DNA from: Bacteroidota bacterium
GTDB lineage: Bacteria > Bacteroidota > Bacteroidia > Flavobacteriales_D > Crocinitomicaceae
NCBI GenBank assembly: GCA_024280295.1
Contig: JAJRQK010000014.1
Span: 1-64,000, forward strand
Reading direction: 5' to 3'
DNA length: 64,000 nucleotides
Position 1 is the first letter of the stretch. Each line of letters opens with the position of its first letter. A program made the position numbers and the translations under genes. Shown here in pieces: positions 1-13,557 of the stretch. The notes below the pieces were generated by a model. It saw nothing but the letters and a program-made list of their open reading frames with translations. It was not told the DNA's origin and did not search any database.

Positions 1-1491
1 CCCACCTCTACCTAAGTGAGTCGCCACATTTCTAAATCCGACGTACGATTTCGCAGTATCTTGATATTCATAGGTACGCGTCGCATTTCGAAGGTAATAT
101 CCAATATCTTTCCATGAACCTCCACGAATGACCTTGCGCTTAATTGATGGTGGATCCCAATCCATTGAATTGTATCTATAATCTGTATTCAAATCGTGAG
201 AGAACTCATACATGGACTCATCGTAAGCAGTTTCACACCACTCAGCAACGTTTCCTGCCATACAATATAACCCCCATCCATTCGGATTGTACGAGAATAC
301 TTTTACAGTATGAAAACCTCCATCCTCAAAGTAACGACCTCGCATCGGTTTAAAGTTTCCAAGAAAACATCCGGATTCATTTCTAATGTAAGGTCCACCC
401 CATGGGTATTGTGATAAGTTCAAATCTCCACGTGATGCTCTTTCCCATTCAGCCTCAGTTGGCAAGCGGAAATCATTCACAAATAAATCTCCCATAGAAC
501 TCAACCAGCTATTCAATAATTGCGTTCTCCAAACGGAGAAGGCTTTAGCTTGAACCCAAGTCACACCAACAACAGGGTAATTATCGTATGCTGGATGCCA
601 AAAATACATGTTCGTCATTGGGTCATGGAATGAATAAGTAAAATCACGTACCCAGCATAATGTATCTGGATAAACATTGATAATCTCATCAATAATAAAT
701 CGTTGACGATTTGCATGTCCACGAATCCCATTAGACCCACCAATCTTGTTAATTCCATTACTCATATCAAGATCTTGCCCTTGTGGCTCCTCTGTAAATG
801 GATGTGGCGGAGTTACTAATTCTCTATGCTCTTGGACAAGTTTATTCCCTTGACTGTCGTAGGCATTTGGAGTGATATTAATTCTACCACGACGCGCAGC
901 TTCCACAAAATCTATCCAGTAATACCTAAACATCAATTTACGAGTATCAATAACTCGACGTTTGTAATAACGCTGGGGCTCTGGATAATACATATCAGCC
1001 AACAGAGGTACAATATCTGGATCATTGTAATAGAATCGACGATCCCAGTTCAAATTGAAAACTTCACGGTTCAACTCACGATCAGATTCATCGTATTCAA
1101 CATACTCCAATGCACCTTCATCAAAATAAAGATCTTGATAATTGATGTAATCACTTGCATCCTCATCTTCCTCATGACCATAAAAGATTTTATCACGAGC
1201 GATCGAATCTCTTACCCAATCAACAAATTGACGGTACTCATTATTTGAGATTTCAGTTTGGTCCATATAAAACGCTTGAACTGAAACTGTTTTGGGTCTC
1301 GTTTGATGTAAGAATGGAATATCCCCATCATTTTCTCCCATCTGATAGGCACCAGAGGGGATATACACCATCCCCAACGGGATTTGCGGATGATAAACTG
1401 GCCTATTCATAGTACCAGTCAAATGGCCTGTTCTTGTTGAACAAGATGCAAGCACCACACTCACTAAAGTAAATAACAAAAGTTTTTTCAT
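1..1491 (-). CDS. gldK: GldK, T9SS outer-membrane lipoprotein (3' end outside window)
   Basis: GldK is an outer-membrane lipoprotein which, in the known family, forms a periplasmic ring with GldN as part of the type IX secretion and gliding machinery. Reading from the ATG at 1491 gives 497 codons without a stop, so the gene runs off the left edge. The start MKKLLLF...VLASCS is a lipoprotein signal with the lipobox Cys near residue 17. The body has the formylglycine-generating-enzyme (SUMF1) fold signatures: GMVYIPSGAYQMGENDGD near residue 40, MDQTEISNNEYRQFV near 75, RLPTEAEWERASRG, MAGNVAEWCE and VIRGGSW towards the end. It lies 115 nt downstream of porP/sprF on the same strand, the usual porP-gldK order; gldL, gldM and gldN would be expected to the left. 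GldJ is the alternative SUMF1-type lipoprotein, but the porP neighbour favours GldK. Confidence 0.9.
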   Translation of the reverse strand, partial: MKKLLLFTLVSVVLASCSTRTGHLTGTMNRPVYHPQIPLGMVYIPSGAYQMGENDGDIPFLHQTRPKTVSVQAFYMDQTEISNNEYRQFVDWVRDSIARDKIFYGHEEDEDASDYINYQDLYFDEGALEYVEYDESDRELNREVFNLNWDRRFYYNDPDIVPLLADMYYPEPQRYYKRRVIDTRKLMFRYYWIDFVEAARRGRINITPNAYDSQGNKLVQEHRELVTPPHPFTEEPQGQDLDMSNGINKIGGSNGIRGHANRQRFIIDEIINVYPDTLCWVRDFTYSFHDPMTNMYFWHPAYDNYPVVGVTWVQAKAFSVWRTQLLNSWLSSMGDLFVNDFRLPTEAEWERASRGDLNLSQYPWGGPYIRNESGCFLGNFKPMRGRYFEDGGFHTVKVFSYNPNGWGLYCMAGNVAEWCETAYDESMYEFSHDLNTDYRYNSMDWDPPSIKRKVIRGGSWKDIGYYLRNATRTYEYQDTAKSYVGFRNVATHLGRGG

Positions 1492-1606
1492 TCTACCTCT
1501 TTTTAATCTTCCGGATATCTCTATTAACAACTTACAGGATCAAACTATTCTTGAATATAACGGAATCTATACTGAAATGGTTACAATTATTTAAAATAAA
1601 TCAATT

Positions 1607-2575
1607 TTACAACCATCTTGGATGTTTCGCCTTCTGAATTGGAACAGGCGGTAAATAATAACAATATTTCAATAGAATTTCGTGTGAACCTCTAGAAATA
1701 CTTGATAATTTATTAATTGAAATGTCATAAGAATATCCAACTATAAAATGATCTAGTGGAGTACTCTCATTATTCATAATCTTAAATGGTTGCGCGCCTA
1801 TCATAATAGCAACTGCATCAGAAGTTCTATAGGTCAGGCCTCCATAAGCCATGTTATTCCAAATTGCTCTAACATTGATATCGGAAGAGACTTTAACTAA
1901 ATCTGTTCTTACAAGAACATTTGCGTCGATATCAATTGGACCCCCAGAGATTCCAACAAACTTCTTTCCTCCCATTAAATAATAATGACGAGCAGTATTA
2001 TATGTAATTGCGGAAATCGCAGACGGTGATAATACAGACTCAGATAGGTGAGTGGATGAAATCCCAACATAATAATTCTGAAGTCCTTTCAGATATATAC
2101 CGAAGTTCAAATCCAAATTTGTTGCCCCAAACGCAACAGGTAAAGATGGATCAACAGCATTTGTTGGCGGAACCCAATCTGGATTCATCCCAACGTTAGT
2201 TATCCCTACACCAGCACCAATACCTATCACACCTACTCCTTGAATATGGGCAGGGTACGAATAATTCAGTAACACATTATTCTGACGGGTAAACCCAATT
2301 GCGTCGTGAAAAAATGAAATCCCGACACCACCAGGAAAGAATCGTTGCAAATTTGCTTCTACATTTAAAACAGCCGAATTTGGCGCTCCATTTACCTTAT
2401 CCCATTGATTTCGGTAAATTGTAGTTGCACAAATCCCCTCATTGATTCCTGTCGAACCTGGATTTAGACTCATCTTGTCATACATCCAATGTGTGACTAA
2501 TTTATCTTGCTGCGCAAACGATGAAACGCCCGTAAACAATGCGAAAGCTGAAAAAACTAAAAGTTTTCTTTTCAT
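1607..2575 (-). CDS. PorP/SprF family type IX secretion membrane protein
   Basis: PorP/SprF proteins are outer-membrane beta-barrels used by the type IX secretion system for export or for anchoring cargo to the moving apparatus. The 322-residue product starts with a signal peptide (MKRKLLVFSAFALFTGVSSFA, cut before QQ) and has the family's opening pattern: HWMYDKMSLNPGSTG followed by a YRNQWDKV motif near residue 55. Alternating glycine/aromatic strands continue to the end, as expected for a barrel. Length fits the family (about 300-340). It sits directly upstream of gldK on the same strand. Several PorP paralogues exist per genome in this phylum; the gldK-linked position suggests the copy tied to the secretion core, but which cargo it serves cannot be read from the sequence. 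Confidence 0.9.
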   Translation of the reverse strand: MKRKLLVFSAFALFTGVSSFAQQDKLVTHWMYDKMSLNPGSTGINEGICATTIYRNQWDKVNGAPNSAVLNVEANLQRFFPGGVGISFFHDAIGFTRQNNVLLNYSYPAHIQGVGVIGIGAGVGITNVGMNPDWVPPTNAVDPSLPVAFGATNLDLNFGIYLKGLQNYYVGISSTHLSESVLSPSAISAITYNTARHYYLMGGKKFVGISGGPIDIDANVLVRTDLVKVSSDINVRAIWNNMAYGGLTYRTSDAVAIMIGAQPFKIMNNESTPLDHFIVGYSYDISINKLSSISRGSHEILLKYCYYLPPVPIQKAKHPRWL

Positions 2576-2747: not shown

Positions 2748-3899
2748 CTAAGATAGTTTTTGGAGCGTTTTCCACCAAAGATTTGGAATTTGATTCTCCA
2801 TCGCACCTTCATAATCATCTTTGGTGCATGGAACGAGCTGATGTCGCTCATACTTACCTTCACTTCCAGCTGGGTAGTTCACCTCAAGCCACCACCTATT
2901 GGATTTGTCACTTTTAAAGAATGTGAGGTCATCAGAAAAATCCTCCATGTGCACATGAAATCTGGTGTAATTTTTCATCCCTCCAATTGGAAAGTCTCCA
3001 TAACGATTTGACACACCATCAATGAAATACCAAATCACTTGAGCCAATAAATTAGAGGCTACAGAATTTTGATTTGGGTGAAGATTAAAGATGCCAAAGC
3101 AACTCATCTTGTCGCTAATACCACTATACTTTACAATTTGGCAAATTTGGTCAGCATAAAATCCATTCGGATTTGTATAACAAGAAGAATCAGTATCACT
3201 GCATCTTATACTGTTAAAATCAAGTGAAACAAGGTCAGAATTTCTCAAATGTGGCTCTGCTATTTTGAAATCATTGTTAAATTCACCTAAACGGCAAGTA
3301 TCGAAATACAACTTTTCAAACAGGTCGATTTCACGTTTTGAAACAAGAGGTCGTTGAAGTCCAATATTTACAAAATTGAAGAGAAAACAAGGGCGTTGCA
3401 TCAATAAATGACTGACATATCCATCTGAAGTTGCTAGTTCATTTGGCTCTCCGATATCTAAAGAGTGATCAACAGAACATATATTAATTAATCGTTCTAA
3501 CTTCTCGAATCCCTTGTAACAAGCAAGCGTGAGATCTTGGCTCCCTCCTAAAATGATTGGGATAATATCCTTCTTCACCAGTTCAGCGACAACCTGCGCA
3601 ACAGCAAAAAAAGTATCCTCGACTGTTTCACCTGGAAGAATATTTCCTAGATCATAAATAACGGTATTCCAAGCGTCTCCAGAACTGAGAGAGTAAAAAG
3701 AAGTCCTAAAGCTTTCGTTTTGTTTTGTATACTTGTCATCTGAATTGCGGTATTCAGGAACGTAGATTAGTGCGACCCCCTTGTCCGATAAATCAGGGAA
3801 CTCACTATCATCATATATAACCATTGAATCACCAAGACAACCTTCGTTACGAGGATGATTCTGTGAAATCGGTGAAAAATAAATCGATAAATCTTTCAT
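2748..3899 (-). CDS. Arginase/formiminoglutamase-family protein with degenerate metal site
   Basis: The 383-residue protein has the arginase/agmatinase fold order. A GG-containing loop (ILGGSQDLT, near residue 118) stands where the family has GGDHS; SVDHSLDIG (near 142) stands where the family has DAHxD; and SLDFNSIR (near 225) stands where it has SxDxDxxDP. Three of the six Mn ligands are therefore replaced: His to Gln, His to Ser and Asp to Asn. In the known family two Mn ions activate water to hydrolyse guanidino or formimino substrates; this copy probably cannot bind the normal pair. It lies between topA and porP-gldK on one strand. From memory, arginase-family genes commonly sit beside gldK in Bacteroidota, often labelled formimidoylglutamase. 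No hut genes are seen here, so a role linked to secretion or gliding is possible but unproven. Confidence 0.75.
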   Translation of the reverse strand: MKDLSIYFSPISQNHPRNEGCLGDSMVIYDDSEFPDLSDKGVALIYVPEYRNSDDKYTKQNESFRTSFYSLSSGDAWNTVIYDLGNILPGETVEDTFFAVAQVVAELVKKDIIPIILGGSQDLTLACYKGFEKLERLINICSVDHSLDIGEPNELATSDGYVSHLLMQRPCFLFNFVNIGLQRPLVSKREIDLFEKLYFDTCRLGEFNNDFKIAEPHLRNSDLVSLDFNSIRCSDTDSSCYTNPNGFYADQICQIVKYSGISDKMSCFGIFNLHPNQNSVASNLLAQVIWYFIDGVSNRYGDFPIGGMKNYTRFHVHMEDFSDDLTFFKSDKSNRWWLEVNYPAGSEGKYERHQLVPCTKDDYEGAMENQIPNLWWKTLQKLS

Positions 3900-3969: not shown

Positions 3970-6483
3970 TTATTTCTTCTTAGCCTTCGGTTTAGCTTTC
4001 GACTTTGATTTTGCCTTTTTCTTCTTCGGCGCTTTAGCTTCAATGATTGCTTCAACTTCTTCTAATGTTAACGCTTCAGCATTTGTAGTTTTAGGAAGCT
4101 CAATTTTAACTTTCCCCTTAATAATATTGAACCGTCCCCAACGTGCTTTCTGAACAGAAATACCTTCTTCTTCCCAAACGTGAATGTATTTATCTATTTC
4201 TTTTTGCTTCTTAATTTCAATTAGATCTTCAATATCCGCATCAGTCAAATTATCAAAATCGTATTTTTTATTTACGTTGATAAACAAATCATTCCACTTG
4301 ATGAATGGTCCAAATCGACCTGTCCCTTTTTGAACTGGAAGTCCATCATAATGTGCTATTGGAGCATCCGCCTCACGTTTCAGCTCAATAAGTTCTATTG
4401 CTCTAGCTAAGTCAACGCTACCAATTTCCTCTCCTTTAGGGATTGACACAAATGCATCTTTAAAACGCACATAAGGACCAAATCGACCTTCAGCAACAAC
4501 AACATCATCTGATTCATATTGCCCAACTGTTTTCGGGAATTTGAATAACTCAAGAGCTTCCTCCAGTGTAATCGAGTTGATTGATTGTTCTTTTCGAAGT
4601 GAAGCAAAGATTGCTTTCTCACCATCGACTTGTTCATCCCCGATCTGAACCATTGGCCCAAACTTTCCAATTCGAGCAATAATTCTTCTTCCGCTTTCTG
4701 GATGCATTCCAAGCTCTCTCTCTCCAGTTACACGCTCTGAATTCTCTAGGGTATCTTCCACATTTAAATGGAATGGTGTGTAGAAATCGTGCAACATTTC
4801 CGTCCACCCGACTAATCCTTTTGCAATTTCATCGAATTCTTGCTCTACTTTTGCGGTGAAGCTGTATTCCATTATTTTCCCAAAATGCTCGACTAAGAAA
4901 TCGGTAACTAAGATTCCTATATCGGTTGGGAACAATTTATTCTTCTCACGACCTGTAATTTCCGAAAGTTGAATCTTCTCAATTTCACCACCTTTCAATC
5001 TCCATTGATCGTAGACTCTTTCTTTACCATCTCGTTCTGGTTTTTCAACATATCCACGTTTCTGAATTGTAGAAATCGTAGGTGCATAAGTTGATGGCCG
5101 ACCAATTCCAAGCCCTTCCATTTTCTTCACCAAAGATGCTTCCACATATCTTGATGGTGCGCGTGAAAATCGTTGAGTAACTTTAATCTCATCAGTATTC
5201 ACGACTTCTCCTTCTGAAACTGATGGCAACAATCCAGAAGTATACTCATCTTCTTCAGCATCGTCATCAAGTGTTGTCTCTAAGTATACTTTTAAGAAAC
5301 CTTCAAATTTAATCACCTCCCCTTTTGCTATAAATGTATCAGCAACACCATCAGCATTTAATTTTATTGTTGTTCTTTCCAGTTTAGCATCTGACATTTG
5401 AGATGAAATTGCTCTTTTCCAGATTAAATCATATAATCGTTCTTGTTCACGCTCGCCTGTAATTGAATGTGAAGAAAAATTTGATGGGCGAATTGCCTCG
5501 TGTGCCTCTTGAGCACTACTCGACTTATTTGTATATTTTTGTGGATTAGAAAATTCAGATCCATACGCTTTTTCAATTTCTTTTTGCGCTGCCTCAATTG
5601 CGGTATCCGACAAATTCACAGAGTCCGTTCTCATATAGGTGATATGTCCAGCTTCATATAAACGCTGTGCAACTTGCATTGTTCTTGAAACGTTAAATCC
5701 AAGCTTCAAACTAGCTTCTTGCTGCAATGTGGAAGTTGTAAACGGTGCAGTTGGCTTTTTGATTGCCGGTTTCATGGTTACATTTGAAACAGCGAATGGA
5801 GCAGTTCTACAAGATTCCAACAATGTGTTTACCTCCTGCTCAGAGTTCAAATTTCGAGAAACCTCAGCTCTAATTCCGCCTTTCGCTGTCTTAAATTGAG
5901 CTACAACCTTATAATATGTCATTGTTTCATGCGCTTCAATCTCTCGTTCTTTTTCAACGATTAGTCGTACCGCGACAGATTGAACTCTGCCAGCTGACAA
6001 ACTTGGACGAACTTTTCTCCAAAGTACTGGCGACAATTCAAAACCAACAAGTCGATCTAAAATCCGCCTTGCCTGTTGAGCATCAACTAATTCTTTATTG
6101 ATTTCACGTGGTGATTCAATTGCCTTTGTGATGGCTGACTTTGTAATTTCGTTGAAAGTAATTCGACGAGTTTCCTTTTTATCTAAACCAAGTGTTTCAT
6201 ATAAGTGCCAAGATATTGCTTCTCCTTCACGATCCTCGTCCGTTGCGAGCCATACAACATCAACTCCCTTGACTAACTTTCTAAGTTCGGCAACCAAGGC
6301 CTTTTTATCGGGAGAGATTTCATAAACAGGTGCAAAATCATTGTCCACATCTATGGCTACTCCTTTCTTCGCAAGATCTCTTACGTGTCCAAAACTTGAT
6401 TTCACAACGAAATCTTTTCCTAAGTATCCTTCAATCGTTTTCGCTTTCGCGGGTGACTCGACAATTACTAAATTCTTGGCCAT
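3970..6483 (-). CDS. topA: DNA topoisomerase I
   Basis: Type IA topoisomerase that relaxes negative supercoils through a 5'-phosphotyrosine intermediate. The start is placed at ATG 6483 (MAKNLVIVESPAKAKTIEGY), because the extra 19 residues of the longest open frame are not family-like; this gives 837 aa. Domains in order: Toprim (residues 1-120, with the acidic TDEDREGE at 81-88), the catalytic type IA core (active-site Tyr283 in YMRTDS), then C-terminal repeats containing the motif FGPxxxxxD several times. There are no Cys4 zinc fingers, the usual form in Bacteroidota. The tail is a lysine/alanine-rich stretch, probably a DNA contact. It is divergent from miaB and first in a minus-strand series leading to gldK. 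Confidence 0.97.
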   Translation of the reverse strand: MAKNLVIVESPAKAKTIEGYLGKDFVVKSSFGHVRDLAKKGVAIDVDNDFAPVYEISPDKKALVAELRKLVKGVDVVWLATDEDREGEAISWHLYETLGLDKKETRRITFNEITKSAITKAIESPREINKELVDAQQARRILDRLVGFELSPVLWRKVRPSLSAGRVQSVAVRLIVEKEREIEAHETMTYYKVVAQFKTAKGGIRAEVSRNLNSEQEVNTLLESCRTAPFAVSNVTMKPAIKKPTAPFTTSTLQQEASLKLGFNVSRTMQVAQRLYEAGHITYMRTDSVNLSDTAIEAAQKEIEKAYGSEFSNPQKYTNKSSSAQEAHEAIRPSNFSSHSITGEREQERLYDLIWKRAISSQMSDAKLERTTIKLNADGVADTFIAKGEVIKFEGFLKVYLETTLDDDAEEDEYTSGLLPSVSEGEVVNTDEIKVTQRFSRAPSRYVEASLVKKMEGLGIGRPSTYAPTISTIQKRGYVEKPERDGKERVYDQWRLKGGEIEKIQLSEITGREKNKLFPTDIGILVTDFLVEHFGKIMEYSFTAKVEQEFDEIAKGLVGWTEMLHDFYTPFHLNVEDTLENSERVTGERELGMHPESGRRIIARIGKFGPMVQIGDEQVDGEKAIFASLRKEQSINSITLEEALELFKFPKTVGQYESDDVVVAEGRFGPYVRFKDAFVSIPKGEEIGSVDLARAIELIELKREADAPIAHYDGLPVQKGTGRFGPFIKWNDLFINVNKKYDFDNLTDADIEDLIEIKKQKEIDKYIHVWEEEGISVQKARWGRFNIIKGKVKIELPKTTNAEALTLEEVEAIIEAKAPKKKKAKSKSKAKPKAKKK

Positions 6484-6623
6484 AGTACTTCTATATTTCA
6501 AGGTGTTATACTTTTTCAGGATCAATTTCCCTCTTAGCATTCGCCTGCAAAATAAGAGGAATTAAATTTCAAAAGCAATTAAAAGCGAAAACAAAATGGA
6601 ATTAAAGGTTTTGATTTGTCATT

Positions 6624-6868: not shown

Positions 6869-8323
6869 ATGAATAAAGAGAAGAACGAGCAGGAGGCCGA
6901 TGAGAATCGACAAGGTGAAGCAACAATGGTAAAACCTGGATCGAAACTAAATGGTAAAAAACTATTTATTGAAAGCTACGGATGCGCCATGAATTTCGCT
7001 GACAGCGAGGTAGTTGCATCAATTCTAGCAAAAAAAGGGTACACAACCACAAGCGATGAAAAAGAGGCGAATGTAATTCTAATCAATACATGTTCAATTC
7101 GGGAAAACGCAGAAACGCGTGTCCGAAGAAGATTAACCAACTTTAAAAATAGAAAAAAACACGAACCAACTCTTATAGTAGGTGTTCTAGGATGTATGGC
7201 AGAACGATTAAAAAAGCGACTATTAGAGGAGGAAAAACTCGTTGACTTAGTTGCTGGACCTGATGCGTATCGTGATTTACCAAGTTTACTTGAAGAAGTT
7301 GGAACCGGTCAAAAGGCTGTTAATGTGTTGCTTTCACGCGAGGAAACCTACGCAGATATCTCACCAATAAAATTAGATAAAAGTGGCGTAACAAGCTTTG
7401 TGTCGATAACGCGTGGTTGTGATAATATGTGCTCATTTTGCGTAGTACCATTTACAAGAGGACGCGAGCGATCAAGAGATCCACAAACAATTCTCAATGA
7501 ATGCAGAGATTTACTTGAACGGGGATACCGTGAAGTCACATTGTTAGGACAGAACGTTGACTCATATCGTTGGAATTTGACATCTAAAGGAGAAATCAAA
7601 GACACAAATAAGCCAACTACTAACTTTGCTGAATTGATGGAAATGGTAGCTCAACTATCACCAGACCTACGAATTCGCTTCTCGACTTCCCACCCAAAAG
7701 ATATGTCCGATGAAGTATTGAATATCATCGCAAAATATGAAAATGTTTGCAACTACATCCACTTACCAATCCAATCTGGAAATACAGAAGTGCTAGCTCG
7801 AATGAACCGCGGCTATTCAAGAGAATGGTATTTAGAACGAATAGAAGCTATTCACAGAATTATCCCAGATTGCGCAATTTCAACAGATATAATTACTGGA
7901 TTTTGTGACGAAACTGATGATGAGCATGCAGACACAATCTCTATTATGAAAGAAGTGAAATGGGATTTCTCATACATGTATAAGTATTCAGAACGACCGA
8001 AAACTTTGGCCGAGCGTCGCTTTGAAGATAATGTACCAGAGAATGTGAAAGCCGCACGATTGACTGAAATCATTGATCTACAGCAATTTCATTCGCTAGA
8101 GGCAAACAAAAAACATGTCGGGAAGACCTTCAAAGTACTTGTCGAAGGACCTTCAAAGCGAAAGCCCGATGAATTTATGTCTGGTCGAACAGGTCATAAC
8201 ACTAAAGCAGTATTCCCAATTGGAGATTTTGGAAAATGTGATTATGTGATGGTTAAAATAAACGACTGTACAGCCGCAACATTACTAGGTGAAGTCATCG
8301 AAATACTTCCACCTACAAACTAA
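6869..8323 (+). CDS. miaB: tRNA-2-methylthio-N6-dimethylallyladenosine synthase
   Basis: MiaB is a radical-SAM methylthiotransferase that adds the 2-methylthio group to i6A37 in tRNAs reading UNN codons. In the 484-residue frame the N-terminal UPF0004 domain carries the three auxiliary-cluster cysteines (C39 in YGCAMN, C75 in NTCSIRE, C109 in GCMAERL). The radical-SAM CxxxCxxC is at C184, C188 and C191 ([10 protein letters not shown]). A C-terminal TRAM domain follows. The first 20 residues are polar and not conserved in the family, so translation may begin at ATG 6926 ([10 protein letters not shown]). It is the first gene of a plus-strand operon: the stop is 7 nt before the next ATG. Confidence 0.96.
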
Positions 8324-8330
8324 TAATTTC

Positions 8331-9566
8331 ATGGATGTTCAACAGATAAAACAACGATTCGGAATTATCGGAAACACGGCATCACTGCATCGGGCTCTAG
8401 AGATTGCAATGCAAGTAGCTCCAACCGACATCTCGGTATTGGTAACAGGCGAAAGTGGTACTGGAAAAGAGATAATCCCTCAAGTGATCCATCAACTAAG
8501 TTCACGAAAGCATGCTGAATACATTGCCGTAAACTGTGGTGCTATTCCAGAAGGAACAATTGATTCTGAACTTTTCGGACACGAAAAAGGATCATTTACA
8601 GGAGCTAGTGGAAGTCGAAAAGGCTATTTTGAAGTTGCTGATGGAGGGACAATATTCCTTGATGAAGTTGCAGAATTACCTATGCAAACTCAAGTTCGAT
8701 TACTTCGAGTACTTGAAACAGGAGAGTTCATTCGCGTTGGAGCTTCAAAACCAATAAAAACCGATGTTCGGGTTGTTGCTGCAACCAACGAAAACATGCA
8801 ACAAGCAATTTATTCGGGTAAGTTTAGAGAAGATTTGTTTTATCGATTAAATACAGTTCCAATATCGCTTCCTCCACTTCGTAAACGAAATGAGGATATT
8901 CATTTACTATTCCGTAAATTCTCAAGTGATTTTGGCGACAAATACAGAATGCCATCAATCAAATTGACGCCTGAAGCTGTTGAAATGGTTACACACTATG
9001 GTTGGCCAGGAAATATTCGTCAGTTGAAAAATATTGTTGAACAAATTTCCGTTATTGAAACATCACGCGAAATTGACGCAGTAACATTGGCGCCTTATTT
9101 GCCCCCAATTGGAGATAGAACACCCGCGTTAATTAAAAAAGACTCGAAGGAAAGTATTGATGAACGTGAACTTATGTATAAATTTCTATTCGACATGAAA
9201 CGTGACTTAACAGAACTAAAAAAACTAGTGATCGATATCGCTTCAAAGGATGGTAATATCTCGTTGAGTAGTGATCAAACAAGTCTAGTGAATCGTTTTT
9301 ATGATGATGTGAACTCGGATGCTTCTATTAGTCACATACTTCCACCTGCTAAAGAAGAAACATACGGCTATCAAAAACCAAACGAGCAAAATTTCGAGGA
9401 ACATGAAGAGGTTGAAGAGTCTCTCTCGTTAGAAGATCGAGAAAAAGAATTGATTGAAAAAGCACTTTTAAAGCATAAAGGAAAGAGAAAATACGCAGCA
9501 GCTGAACTGGGAATAAGTGAACGAACGCTGTACAGAAAGATTAAAGAATATAATTTAACAGACTAG
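8331..9566 (+). CDS. Sigma-54-interaction-domain transcriptional activator
   Basis: AAA+ bacterial enhancer-binding-type regulator of 411 aa; ATG 8331 is chosen because it starts just ahead of the conserved AAA+ domain. Visible motifs are Walker A GESGTGKE (residues 40-47), GSFTGA (87-92, the family's sigma-54 contact loop GAFTGA with Ala to Ser), Walker B GGTIFLDE (105-112), and a Fis-type helix-turn-helix at the end (AAAELGISERTLYRKI). There is no N-terminal receiver, PAS or GAF domain, so activity is not under obvious signal input; a roughly 100-residue acidic linker lies between AAA+ and HTH. It sits between miaB and lptE with a 1-nt stop/start overlap to lptE, an arrangement I recall as conserved in Bacteroidota. 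Targets cannot be read from the sequence. Confidence 0.93.
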   Translation: MDVQQIKQRFGIIGNTASLHRALEIAMQVAPTDISVLVTGESGTGKEIIPQVIHQLSSRKHAEYIAVNCGAIPEGTIDSELFGHEKGSFTGASGSRKGYFEVADGGTIFLDEVAELPMQTQVRLLRVLETGEFIRVGASKPIKTDVRVVAATNENMQQAIYSGKFREDLFYRLNTVPISLPPLRKRNEDIHLLFRKFSSDFGDKYRMPSIKLTPEAVEMVTHYGWPGNIRQLKNIVEQISVIETSREIDAVTLAPYLPPIGDRTPALIKKDSKESIDERELMYKFLFDMKRDLTELKKLVIDIASKDGNISLSSDQTSLVNRFYDDVNSDASISHILPPAKEETYGYQKPNEQNFEEHEEVEESLSLEDREKELIEKALLKHKGKRKYAAAELGISERTLYRKIKEYNLTD

Positions 9567-10072
9567 TGCGATTCGGATTACTTATCATATCAGTATTTAT
9601 ACTCACATCGTGTTGGCCGACTCGTATTGGGTTTAAAGATCAAAATTTCCCGGAAGAATGGAAGGTGTTTCATTTAAAAACACTGAACAATCGTTCACCA
9701 AACACTCCATTGAGCTATTCAGCAATCTTGTCCGAAGTAATCAAGGATGGAATTCAAAACAGTACTAGTCTAGCGTTAGGTACATCTCCAGACGAGGCAC
9801 AATTACAAATAGAAGGAACAATTGATAGTTATACGATCACTCCTTTGGCTATTCTTGAAGGTGATCAAGCTTCTCAAAACAGGTTAAGCGTCTCGGTAAC
9901 TTTTAAGATATACATTAGCGAACCTGAAGAAGACGAAATGACATTGAGAAGCACACGGTTTATCGATTATGATGCAGGGGTTGATCTCGGAGTCGTAGAG
10001 TCAACATTATTAGATGCTGTTAACGAACAAATAGTTCAAGATGTAATAAATCAATTATTTTCCAACTGGTAG
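9566..10072 (+). CDS. lptE: LptE-family LPS-assembly lipoprotein
   Basis: LptE plugs the LptD barrel that inserts lipopolysaccharide into the outer membrane. The 168-aa product begins at GTG 9566, sharing the G with the preceding TAG stop, and starts with a lipoprotein signal (LLIISVFILTSCW; lipidated Cys16). Its FKDQNFPEEWKVFHLKTLNN start and the SVTFKIY strand in the second half fit the Bacteroidota LptE group. Length is normal. The TAGTG overlaps on both sides show it is translationally coupled to the activator gene before it and the TPR gene after it. Assignment rests on short motifs plus gene order. Confidence 0.8.
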   Translation: MRFGLLIISVFILTSCWPTRIGFKDQNFPEEWKVFHLKTLNNRSPNTPLSYSAILSEVIKDGIQNSTSLALGTSPDEAQLQIEGTIDSYTITPLAILEGDQASQNRLSVSVTFKIYISEPEEDEMTLRSTRFIDYDAGVDLGVVESTLLDAVNEQIVQDVINQLFSNW

Positions 10073-11139
10073 TGCTGAGTATTCAAGACATAGCAGCAAG
10101 AATTTCAGAGCCAAATCAATCATTGGTTGATAATCAAGTCGATTTTAAGTCTCTTGCGGAGAAATATCCATATACACAGATCTTTTCTATTCTCTACTTG
10201 AAATCTTTGAAACAAAGTGGTGACATCCATTTTGAAGACGAATTACTAAAACATTCATATCGTATTTCAGACAGGGTTCAATTATACAAACTAATTGAAT
10301 CCCAAACTTCCACTAATATTGAGCTTAAACCCAAGGAAGTAGAGAGACTTAAGCTTATCAAGGAAGAAACGATTGAACTTGAGACTGTACCCGTTAATAA
10401 ATCAGAGACCGTAGCTGAAATAACTGACACCAAAATCACTGAAGAAATAGCTCCAATTGTTGAAGCAAAACTGGAATCGACAAAAGAGGAAATCACCAAG
10501 GCAGATGAAAATATTGAGGAAGTTGTGAGTCCAATTACTACATCAAAAAAATTGGGTAAAGGTGATCAAAGAGATGTTGACTCAACAGAATATTCCATTA
10601 TCGACGAGGAAAAGAAATCCAAAAAAATAATTGAAGATCAAGAAGACGGACTTGAAACCAGTATTCTTCATCATGCCTATGCCGCAAACTACAACCTGAA
10701 AGAATTAAGTTCGGAGGAAGAATCTCAAACCGCTTCTCACAAAAAAGAAAAATTAGAGAGAAATACACCCGACTCAAAACCAATAGAACTCAATTTTACG
10801 TCTTGGTTGCATGCAAACGTTAATTACGTAGAAACTGAGGAGGCACAAATAAATACACCACTCGTAAATAATTTTTCTGATTTTGATCCATCAAACAATC
10901 TATTCGGAGAGGACGAAAAACCAAGACAAGAATTTTTCTCCGCACCTAGAAAAGCAAAGAAAAGCTTGCAAGAAGATGGACTCCCTATAAGTGAAACTCT
11001 AGCCAAAATATATGCGAGTCAAGGAAATTATCCGAAGGCAATTAGAGCTTATCAAGATTTGTGCTTGTTAAATCCAGAAAAAAAGAGTTCCTTTGCAAGC
11101 CTAATTAAAGAATTAGAAGAAAAATTAAATATAGAATAG
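10072..11139 (+). CDS. Acidic linker protein with C-terminal TPR-like motif
   Basis: The 355-aa product starts at GTG 10072, overlapping the lptE stop by one base. The N-terminal 90 residues are helical (AEKYPYTQIFSILYLKSLKQ). Residues 95-290 are a low-complexity, strongly charged Glu/Lys/Thr-rich linker. The last 50 residues form a tetratricopeptide-like pair (ETLAKIYASQGNYPKAIRAY). No signal peptide or membrane segment is visible, so it is probably cytoplasmic. I recognise it only as a conserved Bacteroidota protein found between lptE and secG; its job is unknown, though the neighbours suggest envelope or Sec-related work. Confidence 0.8.
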   Translation: MLSIQDIAARISEPNQSLVDNQVDFKSLAEKYPYTQIFSILYLKSLKQSGDIHFEDELLKHSYRISDRVQLYKLIESQTSTNIELKPKEVERLKLIKEETIELETVPVNKSETVAEITDTKITEEIAPIVEAKLESTKEEITKADENIEEVVSPITTSKKLGKGDQRDVDSTEYSIIDEEKKSKKIIEDQEDGLETSILHHAYAANYNLKELSSEEESQTASHKKEKLERNTPDSKPIELNFTSWLHANVNYVETEEAQINTPLVNNFSDFDPSNNLFGEDEKPRQEFFSAPRKAKKSLQEDGLPISETLAKIYASQGNYPKAIRAYQDLCLLNPEKKSSFASLIKELEEKLNIE

Positions 11140-11454
11140 ATGGATACGTTATTTTCAGTCATCATTGTTATCGCTAGTGCATTGTTAGTTTTTGTTGTCT
11201 TTGTACAGAACCCAAAAGGAGGCGGTTTGAGCTCAGATTTTGGTGCAGCCCAACAATTGGGAGGTGTTCAAAAAACAAATGAGTTTATCGATAAGACTAC
11301 TTGGGGCTTGGCAATTGTGGTTGCAGTTTTGAGTATTGTTTTGACAATTCGCTCTACAACATCGTCATTCGATATTCCAGCTGAAGAACCAACAACGGAT
11401 CAGCCAAGTGATTCAAGTACTCCGAATGCACAATCGGCTCCTACGGAACCTTAA
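11140..11454 (+). CDS. secG: Preprotein translocase subunit SecG
   Basis: SecG assists the SecYE channel during protein export. The 104-aa product has the two expected membrane helices (residues 3-20 and about 53-70) around the family loop FVQNPKGGGLSSDFG, plus a Pro/Ser/Thr-rich cytoplasmic tail after residue 80 typical of Bacteroidota SecG. The ATG directly follows the previous stop with no gap, so it is the last gene of the miaB-to-secG operon. A 14-bp inverted repeat 24 nt past the stop may end the transcript. Confidence 0.95.
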   Translation: MDTLFSVIIVIASALLVFVVFVQNPKGGGLSSDFGAAQQLGGVQKTNEFIDKTTWGLAIVVAVLSIVLTIRSTTSSFDIPAEEPTTDQPSDSSTPNAQSAPTEP

Positions 11455-11478
11455 AGGGAAACAATAATAGACTTATTT

Positions 11479-11510
11479 AAAATGTCAGTATGTCAGCATA
11501 CTGACATTTT
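11479..11510. terminator. 14-bp perfect inverted repeat between secG and groES
   Basis: AAAATGTCAGTATG, loop TCAG, then the exact complement, followed by two more T residues. The position fits a terminator for the secG operon. The half-site TGTCAG occurs twice on the left arm side and CTGACA on the right, and TGTCTGAC recurs at 11533-11540 near a TACTTTG box, so an operator for the chaperonin genes is a real alternative. The stem is rather AT-rich for a strong terminator. Confidence 0.55.
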
Positions 11511-11527
11511 TTATGCCCTTTTTATGC

Positions 11528-11534
11528 TACTTTG
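11528..11534 (+). promoter_or_regulatory. groES: Possible -7 box for groESL
   Basis: TACTTTG resembles the Bacteroidota -7 element (TAnnTTTG with one base missing) and lies 72 nt before the groES ATG, just right of the palindrome. No convincing -33 TTTG is visible at the correct distance, so support is weak. Confidence 0.3.
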
Positions 11535-11606
11535 TCTGACTTATTAAGATGGCACATTTTATGACGTCCTCCAGTTGAAATTAAGAACCAAAAATTAAAT
11601 AGATTT

Positions 11607-11882
11607 ATGTCAACTCAATTCAAACCCTTAGCAGATCGGGTACTCATCGAACCAGCACCAATTGAAACAAAAACGGCGAGTGGAATCATCATTCCAGATT
11701 CAGCAAAAGAAAAACCATTACAAGGTAAAGTAATTGCAGCAGGAAATGGAAAAGTAGACGAACCAATGACTGTTAAAGTCGGAGATGAAGTCTTATTTGG
11801 TCAGTACTCTGGAACCGAAATCACTTTAGATGGAAATACTTTCTTGATTATGCGAGAATCTGATGTTTACGGAATTCTCTAA
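11607..11882 (+). CDS. groES: Co-chaperonin GroES
   Basis: The 10-kDa lid of the GroEL folding chamber. The product is 91 aa with the family start FKPLADRVLIEP, a mobile loop region (ETKTASGIIIPDSAKEKP, residues 21-38) and the roof and core strands GDEVLFGQYSGTEI. Normal length. It is followed by groEL after 31 nt. No CIRCE (HrcA) element is recognisable upstream; the only dyad is the 11479-11510 palindrome. Confidence 0.97.
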   Translation: MSTQFKPLADRVLIEPAPIETKTASGIIIPDSAKEKPLQGKVIAAGNGKVDEPMTVKVGDEVLFGQYSGTEITLDGNTFLIMRESDVYGIL

Positions 11883-11907
11883 TTTACACAAAAAAACATT
11901 AAACTAG

Positions 11908-13557
<1,650 letters not shown>

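Follow-up and report, generated by a model that had tools for sequence, protein, structure and literature searches.

The arginase-fold protein encoded at positions 2748..3899 (minus strand) of the window, the 64,000-nucleotide stretch of a Bacteroidota (Crocinitomicaceae) genome analyzed here, no longer carries the MnB half of the binuclear manganese centre of its superfamily and retains most of the MnA-side aspartates, as judged from alignment with its homologues. The protein, called PARG in this report, is best explained as a member of a class-wide (Bacteroidia-type) orthologous family descended from a formimidoylglutamase-like ureohydrolase, and it is very probably not a formimidoylglutamase. 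The favoured reading, to which a probability of roughly 45% is assigned, is that PARG would act as a cytoplasmic, non-ureohydrolytic, binding-type accessory of the GldKLMN type IX secretion system (T9SS) and gliding machine. The observations that bear on this role are the sequence, the pattern of ligand loss, its conservation, gene order and co-occurrence counts, to which a predicted fold is added.

The 383-residue ORF, which begins with ATG, lies between topA and two genes of the T9SS. The topA gene for DNA topoisomerase I (3970..6540, minus strand), assigned from its ORF, NCBIfam and other loci, is a recurrent upstream neighbour. Downstream are a porP/sprF-family membrane protein gene (1607..2575, minus strand), identified with Pfam and NCBIfam profiles, and a gldK-type gene with an FGE-sulfatase domain (1..1530, minus strand), truncated by the window edge and named from its domain and place rather than from a GldK model score. 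The first-pass annotation had described a gene of full length beside porP and gldK, a description that holds both for the ORF and for its predicted fold. A separate contig of the same genome (C53) opens with gldL, gldM and two gldN-like genes; the gldN-like pair stands in tandem downstream of gldM (L145, 2922-5157), an arrangement that presumably resembles gldN/gldO of Flavobacterium. On the plus strand, positions 6869-13557 of the window carry a row of what we take to be miaB, a sigma-54-type activator, an LptE-like small lipoprotein gene, a TPR-like gene, secG and groEL. A Bacteroidetes-type promoter pattern matches the window four times against 4.4 expected, with none of the matches before PARG or porP. 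For the porP ORF, Pfam also reports a weak BLF1 match (E 2.3e-4, under the family cut-off), probably by chance. The nearest named relatives of PARG, at 60-61% identity, come from MAGs titled Flavobacteriales, Crocinitomicaceae, Fluviicola and the like.

Profile scores place PARG within the ureohydrolase superfamily and outside the hutG family. The match to the Pfam Arginase model (PF00491) reaches 31.9 bits, over a gathering cut-off of 22; the sole NCBIfam match, to hutG (TIGR01227), scores 38 bits and falls below the curated cut-off of 229.15. A second, canonical ureohydrolase is encoded elsewhere in the window's genome (L001, 171 bits). The metal-ligand assignments used here are taken from the peptide arginase OspR, in which, according to the available text of PMC10028609, the first-motif His and the final Asp of DxHxD coordinate MnA, the DxHxD His and the final Asp of SxDxD coordinate MnB, and the metals are bridged by two Asp residues. 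All three altered motifs that had been claimed for PARG are read in its translation. In GGSQD (residues 118-122; 3534..3548, minus strand), Gln121 replaces the MnA ligand His, as homologue alignment confirms; in DHSLD (residues 144-148; 3456..3470, minus strand), Ser146 replaces the MnB ligand His, and D144 and D148 are kept; in SLDFN (residues 225-229; 3213..3227, minus strand), Asn229 replaces the MnB ligand Asp, and D227 is kept. Three of the six ligands are thus changed (H>Q, H>S and D>N), as had been proposed, and three are present.

The same loss runs through the family. The census covers 102 distinct in-class homologues, an unbalanced set drawn to about one third from the window's own family. 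Three ligands are retained in 65 of these sequences, four in 13 and at most two in 24; none keeps five or all six, so the suggestion that ligand loss is common to the homologues stands, and the change lies beyond chance. The ligands exclusive to MnB are nearly always gone (H146 kept in 2/102, D229 in 3/102), and the aspartates mostly remain (D144 in 85, D148 in 87 and D227 in 88), which indicates that the MnB half has been dismantled in nearly all of these proteins. At the first position, His is kept in 13/102 sequences and Gln is found in 65/102. Of the 16 canonical relatives (L001 plus 15 sequences found outside the class), 14 carry six ligands and two carry five.

These data bear directly on whether PARG is still an enzyme. 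Genes of this type are, we assume, usually annotated as formimidoylglutamase. The idea that PARG is a working formimidoylglutamase draws on hutG as the only NCBIfam match and on a formiminoglutamase as the closest fold, and it is highly implausible given a hutG score of 38 bits where 229 would be needed and MnB ligands missing in 99 and 100 of the 102 homologues. Hydrolysis of guanidino or formimino groups requires the binuclear centre, and ureohydrolysis is therefore unlikely for a protein that has lost the MnB half. The first-pass annotation went further, to a fold kept without its metal site. The kept fold is supported by a full-length prediction, and the MnB-specific ligands are indeed gone; the total loss of the site is not sustained, because the MnA-half residues, three Asp together with Gln or His, are mostly retained and might accommodate a single metal. 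PARG might then be a mononuclear metal enzyme, whose MnA half (D144, D148, D227 and Q/H121) binds one metal for a new hydrolysis or some other reaction. This alternative is considered unlikely: the retention of each aspartate in 85-88 of 102 sequences speaks for it, but at most two ligands are left in 24 of them and the first position is usually occupied by Gln, a weak metal ligand. A change at the first ligand does have a parallel in an otherwise canonical relative (L132), which has Asn instead of His there. Residue N114 of the Trypanosoma cruzi formiminoglutamase is, we presume, the same first-motif ligand position. That enzyme has been made as an N114H variant, according to the title of its PDB entry, which is again in keeping with a mononuclear enzyme.

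The structural model of PARG, built from 60 sequences, has a mean pLDDT of 92.5 and a pTM of 0.92. Its predicted fold is that of a ureohydrolase, with Z of 25.4-33.3 among the 50 matches listed; residues 18-300 superpose on T. cruzi formiminoglutamase (4mxr) with Z 33.3 over 274 residues at an rmsd of 2.2. The best PDB sequence kin by profile is 3m1r (E 8e-21). PARG is thus predicted to share the ureohydrolase fold, in residues 18-300, with HutG/TcFIGase (3m1r, 4mxr and 1xfk), but differs from these enzymes in lacking the MnB ligands, in scoring far under the hutG cut-off and in carrying an extra C-terminal domain past the aligned part.

Other ureohydrolase-like proteins also depart from the binuclear metal centre. 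Chains of metformin hydrolase rank high in the fold searches with PARG, and the MetCb/MfmB subunit of that enzyme (8x3g, 8ryi and 8snf) is likewise a ureohydrolase pseudoenzyme in which coordinating residues are lost (PMC11271267, in the text available). A T. brucei arginase-like protein also combines an arginase fold with evolution without a binuclear Mn cluster, a likeness drawn from a title cited in the same paper (PMC11271267), and differs from PARG in being eukaryotic. Metal-free MetCb is the pseudoenzyme partner of MetCa, and this precedent, as given in the accessible text of PMC11271267, raises the possibility that PARG is a non-catalytic subunit of a heteromeric ureohydrolase. Potential partners are common: the window's genome has the canonical L001, and 88 of 100 genomes of its order match PF00491 at no worse than 1e-40. 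In the remaining 12, no PF00491 match is better than 1.5e-23 and PARG is nonetheless present in all 12, which makes a MetCb-like partnership unlikely as a general role; one of the 12 (G089) has no PF00491 match at all. Moreover, the PARG profile finds one arginase-type ORF per linked locus, with no second one, unlike MetCb, whose active subunit is encoded beside it (PMC11271267, same portion). Taken as an account of PARG, such a heteromeric arrangement is very improbable.

The C-terminal domain (residues 300-383; 2751..3002, minus strand), which contains F327, RWW at 335-337, PC at 357-358 and DY at 362-363, falls outside the part of PARG that aligns with ureohydrolases. Six of its residues (F327, W336, W337, C358, D362 and Y363) are 93-100% conserved in the PARG family and 0% in the canonical set. 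When modelled alone, residues 300-383 reach a pLDDT of 82.5. Searches of this model against PDB folds gave no significant match (best Foldseek E 0.82, best VIA-align Z 4.4), and assignment to a known fold was dropped, the rows for the PARP2 WGR domain being far from significant. Nothing under E 0.13 was found among PDB sequences; the Pfam scan of the window's domain gave no match, and other family members gave only scattered ones at E of at least 0.015. The absence of a PDB or Pfam match does not prove a new fold. A profile of the domain finds matches in 62 of 296 phylum genomes, one in each, and every one of these genomes belongs to the window's class; the search was limited to 18 candidates per genome and did not pick up the divergent PARG of G218, G512 and G574. 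Open frames with a domain match span 377-471 aa, or 288-355 aa in three divergent genomes of family f74.

PARG is widespread within the class. In the window's order, 189 of 199 genomes have a match at E of at most 1e-3, those of G114, G126 and G166 being weak (2e-12 to 1e-4); in the class, 230 of 247 sampled genomes have one. In a sample of the phylum, 87 genomes match; 39 of them lie outside the window's class, where the best match is at 7e-18, and all stronger matches fall within the class. The 15 of these 39 that were read all carry five or six ligands. In an 88-row tree, built by a quick method and containing several long branches, a branch with an SH-aLRT of 99 divides the 72 rows of the family from the 16 canonical ones; the input was thinned from 118 rows by dropping 30, as 39 rows outside the family table were reduced to nine, one of which (L050) was mislabelled as linked. 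In family f63, divergent PARG of G258 and G294 was found by profile and missed by single-sequence search, so that some calls of PARG absence elsewhere may be misses.

Selection has maintained the protein where it was tested. For Flavobacterium-type loci, dN/dS is 0.022-0.047 (13 pairs with finite dS among the closest 14 of 66, many with high dS), which points to strong purifying selection. Three further residues (R203, E215 and R219) are 94-99% conserved in the PARG family and 0% in the canonical set. The replacement of old conserved residues by new ones speaks for a function that has changed yet remains under selection.

The gene neighbourhood connects PARG to the T9SS in many genomes, the usual order being topA-PARG-porP-gldKLMN, with porP left out of Flavobacterium loci. 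Among the matches listed, 81 of 140 genomes of the class sample have gldL 2.1-5.3 kb downstream of PARG and on its strand, and the two genes are linked in 64 of 109 genomes of a second sample, the order containing G229; these counts cover genomes in which both genes were placed and score contig breaks as unlinked. The placement in a T9SS locus claimed for the window is therefore a recurrent one, clustered with gldKLMN, yet it is not universal, as gldL does not adjoin PARG in the other 59/140 and 45/109 among the matches listed. Linkage changes on the tree number four to five by a rough count. Of 57 class loci long enough to test (5 of 62 were too short), from a set chosen towards divergent matches, 16 have both topA and gldKL, two topA only, one gldKL only and 38 neither. 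The 52 testable named loci (28 of 80 being too short) divide into 29 with both, nine with topA only, eight with gldKL only and six with neither. Eleven loci in all keep topA linked to PARG and gldKL not. Conversely, in 20 gldL regions from genomes in which PARG is unlinked or missing, no PARG was found beside gldKLMN.

Some rearranged loci retain neighbours of T9SS type. Four f74 loci, L092 among them, have a gldK-like gene 2.2-5.2 kb from PARG on the opposite strand, with porP in three of the four. In three unlinked loci, two from f55 and one from f74, PARG is directly followed by a gene for a protein of about 1,250 aa with PKD and CHU_C (type IX signal) domains (L098, 8336-12130; L086, 3995-7687; L126, 8675-12442). 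An NAD-dependent epimerase-like gene stands near or next to unlinked PARG on the opposite strand in L074, L079, L085, L095 and L122; these calls were made by sequence, the L122 copy alone being scanned with Pfam. Where PARG is missing ahead of porP-gldKLMN or gldKLMN, a gene of about 260-280 aa that we take to be HemD-like precedes the cluster in L230, L237 and L239; L240 and L241 have a HemD-like candidate ahead of the cluster by size only. For Porphyromonas gingivalis, the accessible text of PMC6994654 lists PGN_1678 (PG0286) as a hypothetical protein, numbered before porP and up 3.44-fold along with porPKLMN in a delta-rel mutant; PG0286 is listed once in a protein table in the available part of PMC12119571. 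Identification of this gene as PARG was dropped: G278, a one-contig genome of 2.3 Mb that may be a Porphyromonas, carries its PARG homologue elsewhere (L098), and its ORFs preceding porP (L228) gave no PARG match at E 1e-3.

Co-occurrence with GldL follows a similar, incomplete pattern. In the order of G229 (158 genomes), a strong PARG match, meaning one that reaches the C-terminal domain, is present in 109 of 146 GldL-positive genomes and in none of 12 GldL-negative genomes spanning nine families (Fisher p 2.8e-7, kinship ignored). The class sample has PARG in 225 of 235 GldL-positive and 5 of 12 GldL-negative genomes, counts that ignore phylogeny and lifestyle. Of those five (G256, G302, G368, G374 and G399), four are less than 90% complete and G256 is 95% complete; complete genomes with PARG yet without GldL are uncommon in these samples. 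In the other direction, 37 of the 146 GldL-positive genomes in the order of G229 have no strong PARG match, and in six GldL-positive genomes at least 99% complete (G215, G303, G364, G392, G418 and G434) no PARG was found even by profile. The T9SS is therefore not generally dependent on PARG.

The strongest rival to a T9SS role is that topA-PARG-porP-gldKLMN is an ancestral gene order in which PARG, a housekeeping or metabolic pseudoenzyme unrelated to secretion, simply travels along. This explanation would account for the many lineages in which PARG is unlinked, the 11 loci that keep topA and not gldKL, the T9SS-positive genomes without PARG, the 5 of 12 GldL-negative genomes of the class sample that have it, and the epimerase-like gene beside or near PARG in five unlinked loci. 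It fits poorly with the 0 of 12 strong matches in GldL-negative genomes of the order of G229 and with the T9SS-type neighbours that recur in some rearranged contexts, and is judged somewhat unlikely, though a serious contender.

A working T9SS accessory would have arisen from a formimidoylglutamase-like ancestor that lost the MnB half, retained the fold and most MnA-side Asp residues, and gained the RWW/PC-DY domain. The first 60 residues of PARG have a top 19-residue hydropathy of 0.17 and no apparent signal peptide, so that the protein is probably cytoplasmic; together with the unlikelihood of hydrolysis, this favours a binding role in GldKLMN assembly or control. PARG would stay in the cytoplasm and work by binding, without ureohydrolysis, its remodelled pocket and new C-terminal domain holding a partner or small ligand. 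It would serve GldKLMN most plausibly at the cytoplasmic domain of GldL, a domain described for PorL/GldL in the available text of PMC7463736, or in assembly or control of the machine, both partner and ligand being guesses. A structural or regulatory function, as proposed in the first-pass annotation, would likewise be conjectural. The many T9SS-positive genomes without PARG, the frequent absence of linkage and the still possible mononuclear metal weaken the case for this role. A bolder and doubtful version holds that PARG is an unrecognised, near-class-wide cytoplasmic component of the T9SS and gliding machinery. On this view its half-dismantled metal pocket and class-specific RWW domain might detect a metabolite with a guanidino or formimino group and gate, or assemble, the rotary motor formed by GldLM, so coupling nitrogen state to secretion and gliding.

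The regulators PorX, PorY and SigP are not known to share the arginase fold of PARG. They are named as regulators among T9SS components in a 2020 review, whose component list, in the portion available, includes no arginase-fold protein (PMC7463736), and a term search of the accessible text of two T9SS papers (PMC8986121 and PMC8754138) found the word "arginase" absent. Pseudo-arginases as such are already known (PMC11271267, in the same excerpt). A class-wide pseudo-arginase with its own domain, beside the T9SS, was not found among the open-licence PMC papers listed; none of these was seen to join an arginase-fold protein to the T9SS or to name PARG, and an earlier mention elsewhere is possible.

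PARG is widespread in a major bacterial class, often lies close upstream of the T9SS core genes, and has probably been misannotated as an enzyme of nitrogen metabolism. Ligand loss in every relative examined, together with strong conservation, indicates that it is probably not an arginase-type enzyme and may be an overlooked T9SS helper. Were that role true, PARG would be a missing cytoplasmic factor of the rotary secretion motor; were it false, PARG would still be a conserved pseudoenzyme of wide distribution that has its own domain.
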